Assembly: GCA_016190755.1 (NCBI GenBank)
Contig: JACPPY010000072.1
Coordinates: 1 to 37,457, forward strand
From: Chloroflexota bacterium
GTDB taxonomy: Bacteria > Chloroflexota > Dehalococcoidia > JACPPY01
Length of the DNA: 37,457 bases
Reading direction: 5' to 3'
A model generated the notes under the pieces. The model was not told where the DNA came from and did no database searches. It worked only from the letters and a program-made list of their open reading frames with translations. The position numbers were made by a program, and so were the translations under genes. Shown piece by piece: positions 3,783 to 30,466 of this stretch; position 1 is the stretch's first letter, and every line of letters starts with the position of its first letter.

Positions 3783-3965
3783 CCTGCTTTGACCCGCCGC
3801 CTGGCTGGACAGTGCAGTCGCAATGTACGGCTCCCCTTCAGACCACTTCAAACAGCACGGCCTGTAGAGTTTTTACACGCCTGCCTGTGGAGTTGTTCGT
3901 GCCATATTAATCTGTACAGGTGATCTCAATCTAATCTATCCGGGTGATCTGCTGTCACTGGCCCC

Positions 3966-3995
3966 TTGACACCCGCCGCTTTACTATGCTATCCT
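3966..3995 (+). promoter_or_regulatory. Candidate promoter for the nine-heme cytochrome
   Basis: A perfect -35 box (TTGACA, 3966-3971) is followed 18 bases later by TATCCT (3990-3995). The cytochrome start is about 190 bases downstream, leaving a long 5' leader that could carry regulation. Confidence 0.4.
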
Positions 3996-4183
3996 GCTCT
4001 CGACTTAGGGCAGACGGGCCCTGTTCTGACTGTGTCGCGCGAATACATTACGGCAACCCAACTACAGATAGGGCGGGGCAGAAAAGGTGCGTGCGAGGCG
4101 CGCCCTACTGCTGTTTATTCTCTTCTGGCGAACATGACCTGGGAAATCCATGGTCTGAGCAAGTCAAGTTGTCAGGAGGTACT

Positions 4184-6478
4184 ATGAGTCGTCTAGCCAA
4201 ACTAAACCTGCGTCTCCTAATTCTGTTCCTGGGGCTGACAGTGGCTGCGGCCTTGGCAGTAGCCGCGTGTAGCGGCGCTACAGGCCCCACCGGCCCCGCC
4301 GGACCTCAGGGCGCTGCCGGTATTGTCGGGCCTACCGGACCACAGGGCGCCTCTGGCTCTGCTGGTCCAGCCGGGTCTGCCGGACCCTCTGGCTCCCCCG
4401 GTGTTACCAATGGCTCCGTAAGCGGTGTGGTCACCGATGCTGCCGGCAAGCCGATCGAAAAGGCTTCCGTAAGCACCGACCCCACCTCAACCACAGCCAC
4501 CACCGACAAGGACGGTAAGTTCACACTGAAGGACGTCCCGCCGGGAAGCTACTATGTAGTAGCCTCGGCCACGGGCAAGAATGCCAAGGCCGCCAAGGTA
4601 TCCGTACTGTCGGGCAAGGAAGCCAAGGCGACGCTATCCCTTAAGACGGAAGAGGCCTTCCCGCTGGGTAGCGTGAGGGCCGTCTCCGCCAGCGCTGGCG
4701 ATAATGAGATCTATCCGGACAACAAGTCAGCGATAACGCTCAGTGCCGGGTACGGCACCAGCAACAATAACAAGATCAATACCTCTGGCCTGAACAGCGT
4801 GGGTGTTGGGACCTACGTCTATCTTCAGGGCAAGGCCACTGACCAGGCCGGCGAAAAGATAACCGCCTGGACCTGGACAGTAGCCGGGCCAAGGGAAAAG
4901 AAGGTGACGGTAGAAAATGCCAACACGCAGTTCCCACGCTTCATGGCGGACGAAGCAGGCCGTTATGAAGTGACAGTGAACGTGGTAAAGGAGAAGGGCG
5001 GCAAGGCCTCCTCCGAGTTTCAGGTCACCGCCGGTTCCTATGTCGGCGTGGGGACCTGCGCCACCTGCCACAGCGGCAGTGTCAAGGCGGACAAGGTCAC
5101 CGAATGGGCCGAGACCGGACATGGCAACAAGTTCGAGTTTCAGTTCGGCAGCTACAGCGCGAAGAGCGACTACTGCATACGCTGCCACACCGTGGGCTAT
5201 GACGAAACGGACAAGGCAGGCGGCATGGACGATGCCGCGCGCCTGGCCGGCTGGACCCCAGATAAGGGCAGCGCCCTGGCCTGGATAGCAGAACAGAAGA
5301 TGACCGTCGACGACATCAAAAAGTCGCCCATGGGGAAGTTCATAAACATTCAATGCGAGAACTGCCATGGCCCGGGCAGCACGCATACCAAGGCGTTGTC
5401 CTATGAGCCGGGCGTGTGCTCGCAGTGTCATGGCCAGGAAATTCAGTGGCGGAACTCCGGCCATGCCAAGACCGGCGCGGCGAGCATGCACCAGGCCGAG
5501 GGCGCTTCCTGCGTAGAATGCCATACCGGCCAGGGGTTTGTCGCCGTTAAGATCCGGGGCGAGAAACCCGTCTTCCCCAATATGGAGCGTGAGGGGTTGA
5601 AGGCCAACATACCTGAGCCGGGCAATATGGCCCCGGTAGCCTGTGCCACCTGCCATGACCCGCATGCCCTCAGCGAGCCTTTCAACAAAGGAACGGCCGA
5701 CAAGCCGAACATCGCCTCCCTCCAGCTCCGTATGGAAGGCAAAGTGACCATGCCGAACGGTGCGACAGTAGATGCCAAGGAGTCAGCAGTGTGCGTCTCC
5801 TGCCACGCCGATAAGCGCGACCTGACCTACAAGGCCGACTACCTGGCTGGCAAGTACACCCGTGGCGCCCACGACAATACCCAGTCGGACGTCTTCTACG
5901 GCGTGACCGCCGCGGTGTTCGACCTCGGCGGCGGCAACTACTCATCCTCGCCGCACAGCCAGCTTGTGAAGAACGCCTGCATCGACTGCCACATGGCGGC
6001 GCAACCTAAAGCTCCAGCTGGCGCCAAGGCCGACAACAAGGAGGTCATTAGCTCGCACGGCGAGCTTCTCATGGCCAATGCCGGCGGACATAGCTGGAGC
6101 ATGACCGGCTCTTACCAGGGCAAGGATATAGAGAACGTCGCCGCCTGCGCGAGCTGCCACAAAGACCTGACCTCATTCGACCGTCAGGCCTATGGCGATT
6201 ACGATGGCAATGGCAAGGCCGAGGGCATACAGACTGAGGTCGCCGGCTTGCTCAAGCTGGTAGCCGCCCAGTTACCCAAGGACAAGGACGGCAAGATAAT
6301 ATCCTCGATAACCAAGGACAACACTACCGAGCTTCAGCGCCAGGCACTGTGGAACTACGCGGTCATAGCCAAGGACGGGAGCAATGGCGTGCATAATGCC
6401 GCCTTCTCCGTACAGGTGCTGCAGCGGACCTACAAAGCGCTCACCGGCAAGGCCGTTCCCGGAGCCACCATCAGGTAA
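4184..6478 (+). CDS. Nine-heme c-type cytochrome lipoprotein with collagen-like stalk
   Basis: 764 residues from ATG 4184, chosen because it has AGGAGGT just upstream and begins a lipoprotein signal peptide with the lipid Cys29 (VAAC). The upstream in-frame extension has no signal. Order of parts: collagen-like Gly-X-Y repeats (about 31-75), a carboxypeptidase-regulatory-like beta-sandwich (about 78-155), a PKD/Ig-like domain (about 165-285), and then nine CXXCH heme sites from Cys292 to Cys655 (CATCH, CIRCH, CENCH, CSQCH, CVECH, CATCH, CVSCH, CIDCH, CASCH). It is probably anchored outside the cytoplasmic membrane and passes electrons to or from an external partner. The partner is unknown; no quinol oxidase or porin gene is nearby. 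It converges with a second lipoprotein cytochrome at 6604. Confidence 0.9.
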   Translation: MSRLAKLNLRLLILFLGLTVAAALAVAACSGATGPTGPAGPQGAAGIVGPTGPQGASGSAGPAGSAGPSGSPGVTNGSVSGVVTDAAGKPIEKASVSTDPTSTTATTDKDGKFTLKDVPPGSYYVVASATGKNAKAAKVSVLSGKEAKATLSLKTEEAFPLGSVRAVSASAGDNEIYPDNKSAITLSAGYGTSNNNKINTSGLNSVGVGTYVYLQGKATDQAGEKITAWTWTVAGPREKKVTVENANTQFPRFMADEAGRYEVTVNVVKEKGGKASSEFQVTAGSYVGVGTCATCHSGSVKADKVTEWAETGHGNKFEFQFGSYSAKSDYCIRCHTVGYDETDKAGGMDDAARLAGWTPDKGSALAWIAEQKMTVDDIKKSPMGKFINIQCENCHGPGSTHTKALSYEPGVCSQCHGQEIQWRNSGHAKTGAASMHQAEGASCVECHTGQGFVAVKIRGEKPVFPNMEREGLKANIPEPGNMAPVACATCHDPHALSEPFNKGTADKPNIASLQLRMEGKVTMPNGATVDAKESAVCVSCHADKRDLTYKADYLAGKYTRGAHDNTQSDVFYGVTAAVFDLGGGNYSSSPHSQLVKNACIDCHMAAQPKAPAGAKADNKEVISSHGELLMANAGGHSWSMTGSYQGKDIENVAACASCHKDLTSFDRQAYGDYDGNGKAEGIQTEVAGLLKLVAAQLPKDKDGKIISSITKDNTTELQRQALWNYAVIAKDGSNGVHNAAFSVQVLQRTYKALTGKAVPGATIR

Positions 6479-22879: not shown

Positions 22880-23575
22880 CTAGAAGCCCAGTCGTTTCAA
22901 GCAGGCTTCGGTGGCCAGCGGCACTGTCGCGCCGGGCATCTGTTTCAATCGCTGTATCTCTCTGGCAAGCGCGGGCAGATCATCGAACGTATCCACGTCG
23001 AAACAGCCGTCAACAAGTGACAGCGCAAGTCTTGCCTCCCGCGCCCTGTCCATCGTTGCGCTGAGCACCTGTGGCGTGCTCCAGGCTATATCCTGGAACA
23101 GGACGTCATGCCGGGTACGAAGGCCGACGAGATAGTAGCCACCGTCCGGGCATGGGCCCAGGCAGGCATCAGACCGGGACAGCGCTGTAAGGGCACCTTC
23201 CAGGTACTCCGGCTGGACAGTGGGACAATCGCTGCCGATGATGACAACCGGCCCATACCCCAATTTGAAGAGGCGTCCGGAAATGCCTGCCATCCTCTTT
23301 CCCAGGCCGCCCCGGCCCTGGGCCATCACTCCGAATCGTGTGCCAGCCAGACGCGAAAAATATTCCAGTGCCTCACTGGGCGTAAACGCCAGGAACAGAT
23401 GCCAGCGCTCAAGGCACAAGGCGGCGGCCATCACATCCTGGACAAAGGCGTGACAAAGGTCCGTGCTCTGCTCCGGGGTCAGCCGTGGTTGCAGGCGCGT
23501 TTTGACTTTCCCGGCAATCGGCTCGCGCACCATGATGGCCAGCGCAGGCCCGGATTGCTTACCTGGCGTCACCAT
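22880..23575 (-). CDS. TIGR04282 family glycosyltransferase (DUF2064)
   Basis: 231 residues. Family hallmarks are MVREPIAGKVKTRL near the N-terminus, IIGSDCPTV, GPCPDGGYYLVGL and DIAWST. TIGR04282 proteins have a nucleotide-diphospho-sugar transferase fold related to MobA/CofC and are found beside TIGR04283 glycosyltransferases, as here; the upstream neighbour overlaps by 17 bases. They have been linked by context to arsenosugar and other glycolipid pathways, but the product here is unknown. Cytoplasmic. Confidence 0.85.
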   Translation of the reverse strand: MVTPGKQSGPALAIMVREPIAGKVKTRLQPRLTPEQSTDLCHAFVQDVMAAALCLERWHLFLAFTPSEALEYFSRLAGTRFGVMAQGRGGLGKRMAGISGRLFKLGYGPVVIIGSDCPTVQPEYLEGALTALSRSDACLGPCPDGGYYLVGLRTRHDVLFQDIAWSTPQVLSATMDRAREARLALSLVDGCFDVDTFDDLPALAREIQRLKQMPGATVPLATEACLKRLGF

Positions 23576-24251: not shown

Positions 24252-25253
24252 CTATTTGCGGGCAGCGAAGATAACGCCGCCTACAAGGCTCACCAGCGCT
24301 ACCAGTACCCAGAAGAGCAGCGAAGCCGCTATGGATGCCTCGCCGGACAGCCCCACGGAACCGAAGAAATAGACGTAGGCGCCTTCCCGTACGCCGAAGC
24401 CGCTGATGGATATGGGCAGCATTTGCAGGGCGGAAATGATGGGGATAAAGGCCAGGCTGTAAACGAAGAGGTCCTTCGGCCCGAGGGATACGTGCGATCC
24501 CAACGCCAGGAAGATGAAGTACGCGACCAGCACCACGGTGAACTGGAACACCAGGGAGTAGAACACTACCCAGGCCACATTGCGTCTGTCCTGCAGGCAG
24601 GCGCCCATCGATGTGCTGACCCCGCCCAGCCATCGTCGGATGGCGAACTTCTCCGGAAGCCTGATCCGCCTGCCAAGGGCTTTCCGCACTCTTCCCACGG
24701 CGAAAAGCAGTATGATGACCAGCGAAACAGCGAATATGCCGATAACCCACCAGCGGAACCGGTTCGATACGTTGTAGCTGAGCACAAGCCCCAGCAGAGC
24801 GGTCAGGGCCAGTGCAAGGGCGGCCAGCAGCCGTTCTCCGATGACAGAGGCTACCGATTCGGAAGTCTTGCCAGTGTACTTGGCAACGTCGGCGATCCTG
24901 ACCACGTCGCCGCCAATGTTCGTGGGCAGGAAGTTATTGAAGAATAGCCCGACCAGGTAGTAGACGAACAGGCGGGATAGGGGTGCTTTGACCCCCTGCA
25001 CCGTCAGCAGTCTCTGCCACTTGTAGGCGCTGACCACCATAGCCGCGACCACTGTGAGGACGCCTAAGCCCAGGTAAAACAGGCTGGCACCTCGCGCCAC
25101 ATCCCATAGCTTCCCTATATCCGTCCGCATCAGCACCAGAACCAGCAAGGCGATGCTGACCACCGGCCTCAGTACGCGGGACAGCGGGAACCTCTTTTTC
25201 GCTGGCACAGCTCCAGGGGCAGCCGACCGCTCTATTGTCCTGTTTTCAGTCAA
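24252..25253 (-). CDS. Lysylphosphatidylglycerol synthase transmembrane domain (UPF0104) protein
   Basis: 333 residues, about eight membrane helices, with the family signature FFNNFLPTNIGGDVVRI and later GERLLA and FGVREG segments. These are the flippase-like membrane domains found alone in many bacteria and archaea (AglD-like) or fused to an aminoacyl transferase in MprF; no synthase domain is attached here. Next to two glycosyltransferases it probably moves or binds a glycolipid. Its start lies 26 bases from the VTT-domain gene stop. Confidence 0.88.
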   Translation of the reverse strand: MTENRTIERSAAPGAVPAKKRFPLSRVLRPVVSIALLVLVLMRTDIGKLWDVARGASLFYLGLGVLTVVAAMVVSAYKWQRLLTVQGVKAPLSRLFVYYLVGLFFNNFLPTNIGGDVVRIADVAKYTGKTSESVASVIGERLLAALALALTALLGLVLSYNVSNRFRWWVIGIFAVSLVIILLFAVGRVRKALGRRIRLPEKFAIRRWLGGVSTSMGACLQDRRNVAWVVFYSLVFQFTVVLVAYFIFLALGSHVSLGPKDLFVYSLAFIPIISALQMLPISISGFGVREGAYVYFFGSVGLSGEASIAASLLFWVLVALVSLVGGVIFAARK

Positions 25254-25279: not shown

Positions 25280-25993
25280 TTATTCCTTGCTCTTTTCGGC
25301 TGGCCGGGATGATAAGCGCCGCTCAAAGGCTTTTTTCAGCGTAAAACCCAGCACCACCAGAGCAACAATGATGCCGAAGGCGTAGATGCCAAGCGAGGTG
25401 ACCTTGGTCAGGTTTTGCCCCAGTACAGAATACACGATGGTCGCGGGTATCTGTCCTATGCCGGTGGCCACGATGAAGCCCAGGAAAGAGATCGAGGTCA
25501 CCCCTGCCAGGTAGGATACAGCATCGAAGGATACGACCGGTATCAGCCTGGCTATAAGCACCGAGTTGTTGCCATAGCGGCAGAAAAACCTGTCGGCGAC
25601 TGCCAGGGCTTTTTTGCTGGCCAGTTTCTCCACTGTGGGCCGGCCCAGGGCGCGTGCGATGAAGAAACAGACAAGTGCGCCAACCATCGCGCTGCTCCAG
25701 GAGAGCAGCGTGCCCCAGAACGCGCCGAAGAGCAGGCCGTTGGAAATAGTTACTACCTGTCCGGGCACCGGAAACAACACGGATTGCAGCACCATCAGTG
25801 CAGCGGAAACCAGAGGCGCCCATACGCCGAACGAGCGGATGTACTCGCGGAGGTTCTCTATAGCCTGGGATATGTCCCTGGTGCTCATCATTCCCAAGGC
25901 GGTGCCTATCCCGGACCTGAAGCCATGCCAGAGCAGGTACAGCAGGGCAAAAAGGATGACCAAGCCCAGCAGTATGGCAATGTTGCGCCACAT
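25280..25993 (-). CDS. VTT domain (TVP38/TMEM64, DedA-like) membrane protein
   Basis: 237 residues from the ATG at 25993, with AGAGGA upstream; the long in-frame extension above it is antisense to the radical SAM gene region and not credible. It contains the SNARE-associated/VTT core: FPVPGQVVTISNGLLFGAFWG, ARALGRP, YGNNSVLIARLIPVVSFDAVSYLAG, GFIVATGIGQIPATIVYS. The family includes lipid scramblases and transporters of undecaprenyl phosphate or other substrates. It follows the radical SAM gene by 71 bases. The two re-entrant loops typical of the fold are visible as the FPVPG and RLIPVVSFD segments. Confidence 0.9.
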   Translation of the reverse strand: MWRNIAILLGLVILFALLYLLWHGFRSGIGTALGMMSTRDISQAIENLREYIRSFGVWAPLVSAALMVLQSVLFPVPGQVVTISNGLLFGAFWGTLLSWSSAMVGALVCFFIARALGRPTVEKLASKKALAVADRFFCRYGNNSVLIARLIPVVSFDAVSYLAGVTSISFLGFIVATGIGQIPATIVYSVLGQNLTKVTSLGIYAFGIIVALVVLGFTLKKAFERRLSSRPAEKSKE

Positions 25994-26064
25994 TGTCTTC
26001 CTCTTGGGCCCGGCCGTTTGAATAGCGGCGGCCTCGCAGGCCGTAGCGCGCTGTTCAGCCAATA

Positions 26065-27594
26065 TCAATGTCCCTCGACATCCACCGCCAGCACGCAGGA
26101 ACAGTGGTAGGTGCCCACCTCGAAGCCCGCGTCGATCACCTTCGCGCCGTCGGCGGCGCAGGACTGGAGTATATTCTCCATCTGCCGGTACAGGGTGGGA
26201 CGCGCACGTTTCCGTTCCGATGGGCCGGGCATGGCCAGCCCCCACATCAACTCCTGCAGCTCGCTCTTGTAGACCTCGCAGTATGGGTCCGGCGCCATGA
26301 TGCAGCCGTAGCCCTGAGTGATCTCGTAGTTGAAGTATGACTGCGCGAAACACCCGCCGCCGCAGAAGAACTTCAAATAGCAGGAGCTGCACCCGACCCG
26401 CTTCTGGACCGAGTCCTCGCGCACCCAGTTTGTGACGGAAGACGACTTCCAGATATCCTCCAGGCTGCGTTCCTTTATCGAACCACAGTCGAAGGCCTCA
26501 GCTCCCACGAGAGAGGCGCACGGGTAGACGCGGCCATCCGGTCCTACCGCCAGTTCGCTGAAGCAGCAGTTGCAAAGGTCGTTCTTCCTGCCCCTCTTGC
26601 TGCGAACGCGGGCTTTGAGGGATTCCTCGTTGTCCACGACCATGCCTGTCTCTCTGGCTACGGTCCTCAGCTCCGCCATTATCTCGGCGACGCGCGAGCC
26701 GTTCACTAGCAGCGCGTCGATGTTCTTGCGCATCCTGCCCCGTGCGTGCAGCCACAGTATATGATGGTCTCTAACCCCTATCGAGTTCAGGAACCGCGTT
26801 GTATCGACCACACGGCCCTGGTTCAGAGCGGTTACCGTTGTCGTGACGATGGGCGATAGGCCGGAGCCGACCAGCCTCTTGATCCCCGCCACCGCCCGGT
26901 CGAAATTGCCCTTGCCGCGTATGGCATCGTTCGTCTGAGCGTCCGGGCCTTCAAGGCTGACCTGCACCAGCAGGCTGCCCGGATTCGCGGACGACAGCCG
27001 CTGCACGATCTCATCGGTGAGCAGCACGCCACTGGTAAGCACAACAAGCTGGGCGCGAGGCGTGACCCATTCCACCAGCTCAAGTATGTCCTTGCGCATG
27101 AATGGGTCGCCGCCGGTAAAGTAGACGCGCCCGACCCCCAGGGACAGAGCTTCGTCCACCAGCCCCTTTATCTCACCAGTGGCAAGCGGGCTGACCGTCT
27201 CGGCCCCGCCATCGACCAGGCAGTGCTTACAGCGCAAGGGGCAGGAGTTATTCGTATGGACCCACAGCTCTTCCAGCCGGCCGGGCGCGATGGCCTGCGC
27301 CCTTCCTCGATAGGCTGGAGACATGCTGGGGCAAGTGGCGACAAAACAGGCCTCCACGGCCTTGCGCACGAAGGCCTCTGTATCCTTGGGGGCCAGGCCG
27401 GTCTCAGCATGCAGTGAGTCAGCTATCTCCCTGAGCGTGTGCCGGCCGTCGCAACGGCGCACCACCCTGGAGCCGATCTCGTTAGTGCTCATCCAGTTGG
27501 GGGCCGATGGGTCTATGAGAAGGTACACTCCATCCCTCTCCTGCTGGACGATGTTCGGCGAGTACAGAATGGTATTCTGTTCCACCTGCTGCAT
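26065..27594 (-). CDS. PqqD-like/radical SAM/SPASM maturase
   Basis: 509 residues with AGGAGG 6 bases before the ATG. The N-terminal about 95 residues form a PqqD/RRE-like peptide-binding domain (LLIDPSAPNWMSTNEIGSRV, DGRHTLREIADSL). The radical SAM core has CPLRCKHC (Cys118, Cys122, Cys125) and YFTGGDPFMRKD. A SPASM region follows with CNCC, DGRVYPCASL, CSSCYLKFFCGGGCF, CIMAPDPYC, enough cysteines for two auxiliary clusters. The tail ends with YHCSC, another cysteine cluster. Such proteins modify peptides or proteins; no short precursor gene was found next to it. It lies 27 bases downstream of the selenocysteine rhodanese gene, so the rhodanese may be its partner or substrate. That link is inference. 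Confidence 0.85.
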   Translation of the reverse strand: MQQVEQNTILYSPNIVQQERDGVYLLIDPSAPNWMSTNEIGSRVVRRCDGRHTLREIADSLHAETGLAPKDTEAFVRKAVEACFVATCPSMSPAYRGRAQAIAPGRLEELWVHTNNSCPLRCKHCLVDGGAETVSPLATGEIKGLVDEALSLGVGRVYFTGGDPFMRKDILELVEWVTPRAQLVVLTSGVLLTDEIVQRLSSANPGSLLVQVSLEGPDAQTNDAIRGKGNFDRAVAGIKRLVGSGLSPIVTTTVTALNQGRVVDTTRFLNSIGVRDHHILWLHARGRMRKNIDALLVNGSRVAEIMAELRTVARETGMVVDNEESLKARVRSKRGRKNDLCNCCFSELAVGPDGRVYPCASLVGAEAFDCGSIKERSLEDIWKSSSVTNWVREDSVQKRVGCSSCYLKFFCGGGCFAQSYFNYEITQGYGCIMAPDPYCEVYKSELQELMWGLAMPGPSERKRARPTLYRQMENILQSCAADGAKVIDAGFEVGTYHCSCVLAVDVEGH

Positions 27595-27621: not shown

Positions 27622-28800
27622 TTATTCTATGGGCACCTTGGGGTCGTTGCCCCAATCTTCCCAGGAGCCATCGTAGTTACGAATATTATCGTATCCGATC
27701 AAGTGCAGTGCAAGGTACATCACCGACGACCTTATGCCACCCTGTCAGTATACGACGCCGTTCTTGTCCCTTGTAAAACCTATGTTCGCGAACATTCCAG
27801 CAAGTTCCGCCGCTGGCTTAAACACCTTTACGTCGCCGGAGGTCAGGCTCTGCGTCCAATCCAGGTGGGACGCACCGGGTATGTGTCCCCCGCGGGCAGC
27901 CGACTTCTTGTTGCCGCCCTTGAACTCGCCCTCCGGCATAGCGGCCAGTAGAAAGTTCTCCGGCTTGTTCAGCATATCCAGTACCTGCTGCTTGGTCGCC
28001 AGTTTCGAAGCGTCGGGGTTCGCCATGAACTTCCCGGCGCTCTTCTTCACTGCAACATTTGTCAAATCGCGGTCCTCGGCGCGCCACTTTTTCAGGCCGC
28101 CATTCAGGACCTTCACCTTGCCTCCGCCGTGCCCATAGTATTCCAGCGTCCAGAGCAGCCGCGAGGCCCACAGCATATCGGCGTCATCCACTGCCACCAC
28201 TGTAGTATCGTTGCTGATGCCCTTGCTGCTCAGCAATCGCTCTATCTGTTCTTTGGATAGCACCCACCATTTGACCGGGTTTGTCTGATCGTAGAACTCA
28301 CCCCTACGGTCCATGACGTCGATGTTTACTGCGCCAGGTATATGTTTCTTATCGTAGCTCGACGCATTTCGCACATCTACCACGACAACGTTGCCGGCGT
28401 TCAGGTTCTGGGCCAGCCAGTCAGTCTCTGCCAGTAGCTCCGGATGAGCATAGCCCTCAGTTTGCTGGTCCGGTGTTGAGGTTGTCTCGGACGTCGCCGC
28501 AGCCGTTTGTTTCTTTGGTCTATTCCTTCGCCATCGAGGGATGAATATCAGTGCGGCCAGTGACAGGAGAAAGAAAGGCCCCCAAGCGGCCGCGACATAA
28601 GCCTGGTACGGTATGCCGGGACCTCCGAGAACGTTTGCCATCAGGTACTGGTACGGGCCAAGGGGCCAATAGAGTATGCCCTGGGCCCTGTACCAGGCGG
28701 AGGGGAAAGATGGCAGCCAGGTGAAGGAGTTCACCACGACTACCCCGCTGGTGGCGAAATAAGCCAGGGATAAAATCCAGAGCACGATCTTCAAAAACAA
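27622..28800 (-). CDS. Membrane-anchored tandem rhodanese (thiosulfate sulfurtransferase), predicted selenoprotein
   Basis: 392 residues if UGA 27745-27747 is read as selenocysteine 352; otherwise it stops at 351. The TTG start at 28800 has AGAGG 8 bases upstream. Two membrane helices (about 5-25 and 68-88) precede two rhodanese domains. The first (about 120-245) has VDDAD at the active-site position and is the usual inactive half. The second ends VVY-UGA-QGGIRSSV, then LIGYDNIRNYDGSW and EDWGN, matching the family's YC-x-x-G-x-RS and NYDGSW blocks, so UGA sits exactly at the catalytic Cys. A SECIS-like hairpin lies at 27712-27733. It probably moves sulfur or selenium outside the membrane. 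The radical SAM gene follows at 27 bases. Confidence 0.88.
27712..27733 (-). promoter_or_regulatory. Predicted bacterial SECIS element, rhodanese gene 1
   Basis: On the minus strand, 11 bases after the UGA: AAGGU pairs with ACCUU, CGUC pairs with GAUG, the apical loop is GGU and one U is bulged on the 3' side between the two stems. A bulged U and a G-U containing apical loop are the features SelB recognises in the E. coli fdhF SECIS. The apical loop lies 20 bases from the UGA, inside the usual bacterial range. Confidence 0.7.
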
Positions 28801-28859
28801 CTGCTAGCCTCTATTTAGTCGCCTACTGTATCGTCCCGGCCATTGGCCAAAACCAATTG

Positions 28860-28882
28860 CGAGGTGCGCCGGGCGCACCTCG
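28860..28882 (-). terminator. Strong hairpin between the two rhodanese genes
   Basis: CGAGGTGCGC (28860-28869) pairs with GCGCACCTCG (28873-28882) around a 3-base loop. On the minus strand it follows the upstream rhodanese gene and is trailed by CAATTGGTTTTGG, so it may end or attenuate that transcript before the next gene. Confidence 0.65.
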
Positions 28883-28906
28883 GAACGCTTTTACTCCAGG
28901 CGCAGG

Positions 28907-29860
28907 CTATTTCTCGATGGGTGTGTCCGTTTCGTTGCCCCACTCCTGCCATGAACCATCATAGTTGTGAATCTTATCATACCCAAGGAGCCTCAGTGTT
29001 AGGTACGTCACCGACGACCTCTGCCCGGTCTGTCAGTAAGCGTGTACGTCCTTGTCCCGGGTGACTCCCTGGTCCTCGTACATCTTCTTTATCTCGGCGG
29101 CAGGTTTGAACACCGGAGCATCGTCGCCGGTGAACAGGTCGGTCCAGTTGATATTCACCGCTCCCGGTATGTGGCCGCCCCTCTTGGAGCGCACGTCCTC
29201 GCCCTTGTACTCTTGGGGTGAGCGCGCATCCACGATAGCCACTCCGGGCTTGTTCAGCGCTGCCAGCATGCTGTCTTTGGTATCGAGCAGCACGGGATTC
29301 GCCCTGGCGGTGAACTTCTCCGGAGTCACTGTGGGAGCCGTGGTGCTTACCGGCAGGTTTTCCTTCTTCCATTTCGCGAAGCCGCCGTTGAGCACACTGA
29401 CTTTAGTCTGGCCGTAATACTCCAGGGTCCAGAAGACGCGGGATGCCTTGGTATCTTTGCCGTTGTCGTACACGACCACGACGGTATCGTTGCCTATGCC
29501 TCGAGCGCTCAGCAGCTTCTCGATCTGGTCAGCCGGACCCGCCATCTGCTTGGGCCCCGTAGGGTTGAACGTCTCGTCGACCGGCAAGCTGACGGCGCCC
29601 TGTATATGCCCTGCTGCGTAATCCGCCGCCGGGCGGGCGTCCACTACGCGGACGCTATCCAGCTTCTGTGCCAGCGCGCCGGTCTCCCACAGCAGGCCGG
29701 CGTTCTGGAAAGTGAATGGTTTCTCGGTGGTGCTGCTCTTTGCCGGGGTAGTGCTGGCGACCTTGGCGCCGCACCCGGCGAGCAAGACCACTGCCAGGGA
29801 CACCGCCGCAATCACGGCGGCCCTGCCTCGGTGCCTCATGGCCTTGAATCCTCCAGGCAT
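28907..29860 (-). CDS. Tandem rhodanese lipoprotein (thiosulfate sulfurtransferase), predicted selenoprotein
   Basis: 317 residues if UGA 29033-29035 is read as selenocysteine 276; otherwise it stops at 275. The ATG at 29860 has GGGGAGG 8 bases upstream. The lipoprotein signal ends at Cys30 (VLLAGC). Rhodanese domain 1 (about 55-155; [18 protein letters not shown]) lacks the catalytic Cys. Domain 2 (about 165-300; [21 protein letters not shown]) ends [28 protein letters not shown] and QEWGN, so the UGA replaces the active-site Cys and family homology continues 42 codons after it. A SECIS-like hairpin is at 29001-29020. It would act outside the membrane, transferring sulfane sulfur or selenium. 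It is paralogous to the gene at 27622. Confidence 0.88.
29001..29020 (-). promoter_or_regulatory. Predicted bacterial SECIS element, rhodanese gene 2
   Basis: On the minus strand, 12 bases after the UGA: AGGU pairs with ACCU, CGUC pairs with GACG, the apical loop is GGU and a U is bulged at the same place as in the paralogue. The inner stem has a G-C pair where the other copy has G-U, so the structure is retained despite the change. Confidence 0.7.
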
Positions 29861-29884: not shown

Positions 29885-30466
29885 TCAGCGGACTCGCAAC
29901 AGCAGTTGTCTCAGGCCGTCCTTGGCCTTTTTGCTCAGCGAGGCGAACTTCCCCATCTTTGCGGGGAGCTCGATGAATACACTGTATGGCAATGCCATTA
30001 TCAGTTCGTTGGACTCGTAGCCTCCGTACGTCCGGGCGCCGTTGCACAGGAAGGTGACATTAGGGCCGCCGCCGGTATACACGTGCGCCATGGCCTCGCC
30101 ACAAACAGCCATATCGCCTTTGAACTTCGCGTTTACGCCTCCGAGGAGTATGGACATGGTCATGACCTGCTCCGGTGTCAGCAGGAGGAGGACGACGTCG
30201 GCGCCTTCCAGCGGGCCGACCCTGAGGGCGGCTGTCTTTTCCTTTATGCGCGGCTCGATGTTTACATACTTCGGCTCGCGAAAGCCGAGCGTTACCTCGG
30301 CGTTGGGGCAGTTCAGGTTTTCCACCTTCACGAGGAAGTCCTTGCCCGATGCAGCCTCCCTGACAAACCGGCAGAACGTCAGGCGCTTTTCCGGGGGCGG
30401 AAAGCCGGGGTCTTCGAACTTCTCCCCGTGGCGGTACACCTTGACTCCCACTGGGCGCGCGGACAT
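29885..30466 (-). CDS. DUF169 domain protein
   Basis: 193 residues from the ATG at 30466. It matches DUF169: PVGVKVY near the start, CRFVREAASGKDFLVKVENLNCPNAEV, and the late GEAMAHVYTGG and GARTYGGYES. The conserved Cys residues may bind a metal or cluster; the family has no settled function. The frame stays family-like upstream of this ATG (about 16 codons, KAVVSYLG), and AAGGAG at 30522-30527 is well placed for a rare ATC start at 30514, so the true protein may be longer. It precedes the selenocysteine rhodanese lipoprotein gene by 24 bases and probably shares its transcript. Confidence 0.85.
   Translation of the reverse strand: MSARPVGVKVYRHGEKFEDPGFPPPEKRLTFCRFVREAASGKDFLVKVENLNCPNAEVTLGFREPKYVNIEPRIKEKTAALRVGPLEGADVVLLLLTPEQVMTMSILLGGVNAKFKGDMAVCGEAMAHVYTGGGPNVTFLCNGARTYGGYESNELIMALPYSVFIELPAKMGKFASLSKKAKDGLRQLLLRVR

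Follow-up and report, generated by a model that had tools for sequence, protein, structure and literature searches.

Two adjacent genes on the minus strand of a 37,457-nt stretch of Chloroflexota DNA, called the window here, very probably encode proteins with selenocysteine (Sec) at the active site of both, as judged from comparative sequence evidence. The original prediction of two Sec-containing tandem rhodaneses is strongly supported by a catalytic column that holds either UGA or a Cys codon, by a conserved reading frame past the UGA, by SECIS-like hairpins, and by the presence of selB and a Sec-type selD in the genome.

UGA at the catalytic codon of two tandem rhodanese genes

Gene B (28907–29860, minus strand) encodes a lipoprotein tandem rhodanese of 317 aa and ends in TAG (28907–28909). 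Gene A (27622–28800, minus strand), which adjoins B on its downstream side, starts with TTG, ends in TAA (27622–27624) and encodes a fusion protein of 392 aa in which a tandem rhodanese follows a two-TM anchor. The translation of B contains a single internal UGA at codon 276 (29033–29035, minus strand; Sec 276), followed by 41 sense codons and TAG, and that of A contains a single internal UGA at codon 352 (27745–27747, minus strand; Sec 352), within NGVVY-U-QGGIRSSV, followed by 40 sense codons and TAA; the frame thus runs on to the two stops that had been claimed.

Each gene gives two matches to Pfam Rhodanese, with the active site in the second domain. When aligned with Azotobacter vinelandii RhdA (1e0c; 172 bits), the UGA column coincides with the catalytic Cys of the motif 'thCqthhRS'. 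The AlphaFold model of A places residue 352, at a pLDDT of about 97, in the loop that joins the strand 347–351 to the helix 357–367, and the model matches solved thiosulfate sulfurtransferases, among them 1uar (TM-score 0.91 by target length, 38% identity) and 1e0c. Translation, the alignment with 1e0c and the model of A therefore all confirm that the UGA occupies the active-site position in the second rhodanese domain.

The UGA alternates with Cys codons and the frame past it is conserved

Taken at face value, the UGA codons could be true stops in truncated or decaying genes, or TGAs created by sequencing or assembly errors: standard ORF calling ends both A and B at the UGA, before the active site, as the original prediction had foreseen for the usual annotation, and the flanking DUF169 and radical SAM genes use UGA as an ordinary stop. 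Homologues were taken from a sample of 100 genomes drawn from relatives of the window genome, and genes with an internal TGA were aligned with the best Cys-containing ones. Among 56 homologues of the same class, the catalytic codon was TGA in 28, TGC in 27 and TGT in one, and never TAA or TAG; two homologues flagged as containing TAA have a normal Cys in the column itself. The 26 TGA genes other than A and B are spread over 25 other genomes of the sample.

Past the UGA, B and its orthologue in G021, the nearest Sec-bearing relative, are identical at 40 of 41 residues, with a dN of 0.02 and a dS saturated at about 3.3, and comparison of A with B over the same part gave a dN of 0.27 and a dS of 1.5. 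On these substitution rates, the sequence past the UGA is under strong purifying selection. The original prediction had set Cys or UGA in this column against other stop codons and decay of the downstream sequence; the column is Cys or UGA throughout (28 versus 28 of 56), and the downstream sequence of B is maintained. The recurrence of TGA at one codon, the low dN, the conservation of the hairpin described below and the fact that truncation would delete the active site in every case all argue against true stops, a reading that we regard as extremely improbable and already refuted in practice.

A genome-wide reassignment of UGA was also rejected, because both flanking genes end in TGA and their homologues in G038, a relative discussed below, terminate at the corresponding residue. 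The sample also contained a separate subgroup of Cys-only rhodaneses (L041, L093 and L094, from genomes G007, G054 and G074) with the active loop AYCRIGERSSH, which never carried UGA in this sample.

Predicted SECIS elements downstream of the UGA

Both genes contain a SECIS-like hairpin in frame. In B (29001–29020, minus strand) it reads AGGUCGUC-GGU-GACG(U)ACCU and forms 8 bp with a bulged U; in A (27713–27732, minus strand) it reads AGGUCGUC-GGU-GAUG(U)ACCU, which is the structure of B with one G-C pair replaced by G-U. The hairpins begin 12 nt past the UGA and place the GGU loop 20 nt past it in both genes. All eight pairs are kept in A and B, and the structure is also found in G021, where 7 of 8 codons in the hairpin region are identical to those of B, compared with 11 of 30 over the remainder of the tail. 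Taken singly, the hairpins of A and B are of unremarkable stability (z of −1.00 and −0.30, where z expresses the folding of 45 nt relative to shuffled sequence), so that the support for the window hairpin comes from its conservation.

Across the homologues, the 45 nt following the catalytic codon have a mean z of −1.46 in the 28 Sec genes versus +0.33 in the 27 TGC genes (rank test, p = 7e-8). The main group of Sec genes (25 genes) carries CCGUGC-GGC-GCACGG or a close variant, 11 nt past the UGA. The complete 6-bp stem is present in 24 of these 25 genes and in none of 28 Cys genes, which reach at most four pairs, and its outermost pair shows compensatory changes between C-G, G-C and A-U. The loop of the window lineage lies one codon further downstream than that of the main Sec clade.

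In bacterial SECIS (bSECIS) elements, the loop lies 16–37 nt past the UGA (PMC10778597). The GGU loops of A and B, 20 nt past the UGA, provide a G in a small apical loop within this range, and both SECIS-like hairpins are predicted bSECIS elements. The downstream hairpin that the original prediction had invoked as the mark of a selenoprotein is thus found in A and B and kept in G021.

Sec machinery in the window genome and its relatives

The window comes from a draft assembly of 98 contigs and 2.09 Mb, with a completeness of 81%. This genome encodes a full-length match to selB (382 bits, cut-off 242), which adjoins selD (L001:3378-4430, contig C47; 382 bits). At the catalytic position of selD, too, an in-frame UGA is found (AAG-U-AAKLGPGDL), followed by a hairpin of its own, AGGUC-CGGGC-GACCU, and SelD of this genome is therefore itself predicted to be a selenoprotein. 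In the same draft, selA was not found, and neither was tRNA-Sec: the candidates scored at most 43 bits, the eight inspected were ordinary tRNAs (Ser, Ser, Tyr, Leu, Gly, Leu, Lys and Arg), no tRNA with anticodon TCA occurred among the loci scanned, and BLAST of the genome with the tRNA-Sec of G021 gave no match. An Rfam scan and ARAGORN, run on the window, found nothing. Of selA, selB, selC and selD, the set that goes with the original prediction, selB and a Sec-type selD are thus present and selA and selC were not found; as this holds for an 81% draft, the machinery is only partly shown in the genome itself.

In G001, the only genome of the same family that was searched (62% complete), selA is present (280 bits) and cut at a contig end; its neighbour there, folE, adjoins folD on a 4.1-kb contig in the window genome. 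In G021, selA (563 bits) and selB are both present, and ARAGORN confirmed its tRNA-Sec. A tRNA-Sec scoring above 60 bits was found in 24 of 25 genomes with a Sec-rhodanese versus 38 of 74 others (Fisher p = 2.7e-5, a value that is indicative only, since the genomes are related). We take the absence of selA and tRNA-Sec as gaps of the draft, which is an assumption and not proven.

Since selA and selC are missing, the UGA could alternatively be read by an opal-suppressor tRNA that inserts Cys or some other amino acid, and natural recoding of UGA to Cys by selC-like tRNAs is known. The absence of selA and tRNA-Sec from the draft would fit such decoding; however, the genome retains a full-length selB match and a Sec-type selD, selA is present in G001 of the same family, both selA and tRNA-Sec are present in G021, which bears the orthologous UGA gene, the scanned loci lack an anticodon-TCA tRNA, and the neighbouring genes still stop at UGA. 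Suppression is accordingly rated very unlikely, and Sec remains the preferred identity of the residue.

A second Sec lineage

A maximum-likelihood tree from which the catalytic column had been left out unites B of the window, the Sec gene of G021 and the Cys gene of G038 in a fully supported group. This group lies outside the main Sec clade, nested in a larger, Cys-rich group that comprises 23 rows. A single Sec clade was rejected, as this constraint costs 165 log-likelihood units (p-AU = 3e-117). The tree requires at least four Sec/Cys changes, the direction of which it does not fix. On this topology, the window pair belongs to another Sec lineage than the main clade of the class, and the different hairpin register would agree with a separate origin of Sec. 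A scan of 393 genomes of the class, at the threshold used, returned a single further Sec form of B, that of G021.

Gene A is placed nearer to Cys rows than to B, whereas its hairpin is nearly identical to that of B. This placement could be due to gene conversion, to shared descent followed by fast divergence, or to convergence on one SelB.

Gene A is a fusion and the two proteins may face opposite sides of the membrane

The N-terminal two-TM region of A (28510–28800, minus strand) is homologous to separate small ORFs in G021 and G038. Its first 97 residues match the two-TM ORF beside the rhodanese in G021 (L067:1720-1977) with 44% identity over 86 aa (4e-20) and the corresponding ORF in G038 (L141:2611-2826) with 39% over 72 aa (4e-10), implying that in A this two-TM protein has been fused to a second rhodanese. 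At the threshold used, no A-type fusion was found among the 393 genomes of the class.

The original prediction had placed both proteins outside the cytoplasm. For B this is in line with its lipoprotein signal, the lipobox AVVLLAGC (LAGC) with Cys 30. For A it is doubtful: the gene encodes two hydrophobic stretches with one K/R in the loop between them and six after TM2, and by the positive-inside rule its rhodanese domains probably face the cytosol. The anchor of A is a low-confidence region of the AlphaFold model.

A conserved cluster with Sec or Cys

The Sec pair lies at the end of a conserved cluster, all members of which are on the minus strand. The conserved neighbour upstream of B is a DUF169 gene (29885–30466, ending in TGA). 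On the other side follow a radical SAM/SPASM protein with a PqqD-like N-terminal domain, likewise a conserved neighbour (26065–27594, ending in TGA), a VTT-domain membrane protein (25280–26101, start codon provisional), a flippase-like LPG_synthase_TM protein (24252–25253), and two glycosyltransferases named 'arsenosugar biosynthesis', TIGR04283 (23559–24233; 251 bits, cut-off 182) and TIGR04282 with DUF2064 (22880–23575; 180 bits, cut-off 134). The word 'arsenosugar' is the NCBIfam name of these two families and no proof of a product. The ArsS-type radical SAM model was absent among the best 25 matches of the neighbouring radical SAM gene.

G038 has the same cluster in the same order, comprising the TIGR04282 and TIGR04283 glycosyltransferases, flippase, VTT protein, radical SAM/SPASM protein, two-TM protein, rhodanese and DUF169, and the catalytic codon of its rhodanese is TGC. 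In this genome (87% complete), neither selA nor selB was found above cut-off, and the tRNA-Sec candidate is a tRNA-Ser. The cluster points to a role at the membrane, possibly in making a glycolipid or an arsenosugar-type product.

Two observations concern other genes of the window. The radical SAM/SPASM protein has a conserved C-terminus, ...GTYHCSCVLA, also present in G038 and matched by no family, which could be a peptide-like or metal-binding tail. At 3944–6478, the window encodes a large protein resembling multihaem c-type cytochromes, which includes collagen-like and carboxypeptidase-regulatory segments and might serve in extracellular electron transfer.

Proposed function and relation to known rhodaneses

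In the mechanism that we propose, SelB would insert Sec at the UGA, guided by the in-frame hairpin just downstream, and A and B would be full-length tandem rhodaneses of the COG2897/SseA type with Sec as the catalytic residue. The selenolate would take sulfane sulfur from a donor, e.g. thiosulfate or an organic persulfide, giving an enzyme Se-S(H) intermediate from which sulfur passes to an acceptor, where Cys enzymes proceed via a persulfide. As a lipoprotein, B would work on the outer side of the membrane, with A on the inner side and both tied to the membrane/glycan cluster. Sulfurtransferase chemistry is in our estimation a reasonably probable activity of A and B.

The Sec proteins might instead be thiol or peroxide oxidoreductases, or enzymes that handle selenium or arsenic, a possibility that competes with the catalytic part of the proposal only. 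A recent review considers the majority of predicted Sec proteins to be redox enzymes (PMC13188914), and the cluster contains the two 'arsenosugar' glycosyltransferases above cut-off. A weaker second match connects the proteins to ExtH (NF040901), a rhodanese of selenite/tellurite reduction operons, at 100 and 87 bits; this is a distant sequence match below the cut-off of 200, and no ext operon genes were recognised among the neighbours scanned. Conversely, A and B have the fold and the active-site loop of tandem sulfurtransferases, Sec and Cys forms interchange within the same cluster, and no resolving Cys stands beside Sec (motif UQxGxR). A redox or metalloid-handling role is in our estimation less likely than not.

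Relative to the Cys sulfurtransferases RhdA (1e0c), the Thermus thermophilus enzyme (1uar) and Escherichia coli SseA (1urh), the window proteins are alike in having two domains with the active loop in domain 2, and differ from Cys thiosulfate/3-mercaptopyruvate sulfurtransferases by Sec in place of Cys and by their attachment to the membrane. Assignment to the 3-mercaptopyruvate sulfurtransferase equivalog (NF008557, NCBIfam) was rejected at 128 and 150 bits (cut-off 250).

Sec rhodaneses of the COG2897 kind are already known as a prediction. Three Sargasso Sea sequences were predicted in 2005 (PMC1088965), eight sequences in the GOS data are listed as rhodanase-related sulfurtransferase (PMC2398784), and the family figures as predicted in reviews of 2022 and 2026 (PMC9312934, PMC13188914), so that the earlier description of rhodanese-like selenoproteins as only sparsely reported is fair. 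As far as the accessible parts of these four papers describe them, the predicted proteins ('form 4') resemble A and B in the tandem rhodanese architecture, in Sec at the catalytic Cys, in the motif UxxG (UQTG and UQGG in the window genes) and in a bacterial SECIS directly downstream, whereas an adjacent pair and a two-TM fusion are absent from those descriptions. The comparison is one of descriptions, and the published sequences may belong to either Sec lineage. The literature available in part yielded no enzymology of Sec-rhodaneses and no description of Chloroflexota Sec-rhodaneses, and a full-text search returned no paper joining 'selenoprotein' with SAR202. What is new here is the separate Sec lineage with its other hairpin register, the fusion in A, the adjacent pair, and a cluster that carries Cys in a relative in which Sec machinery was not detected (G038).

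More speculatively, and with considerable doubt, this lineage may have exchanged Cys for Sec independently of the main clade and built its SECIS anew, one codon further downstream, and the two-TM fusion may have produced a selenosulfurtransferase pair on opposite faces of the membrane, whose members would pass sulfane sulfur, or else selenium, across the membrane or along it for a membrane/glycan or arsenosugar-type pathway.

A single position is thus either Sec or Cys in 56 related genes, with two Sec lineages and two hairpin designs, and in one conserved cluster Sec accompanies the machinery, and Cys is used where none was detected. The exchange at one position therefore offers matched pairs with which to test the contribution of selenium to sulfur transfer, in an enzyme that is widespread in the class and that standard ORF calling strips of its active site.
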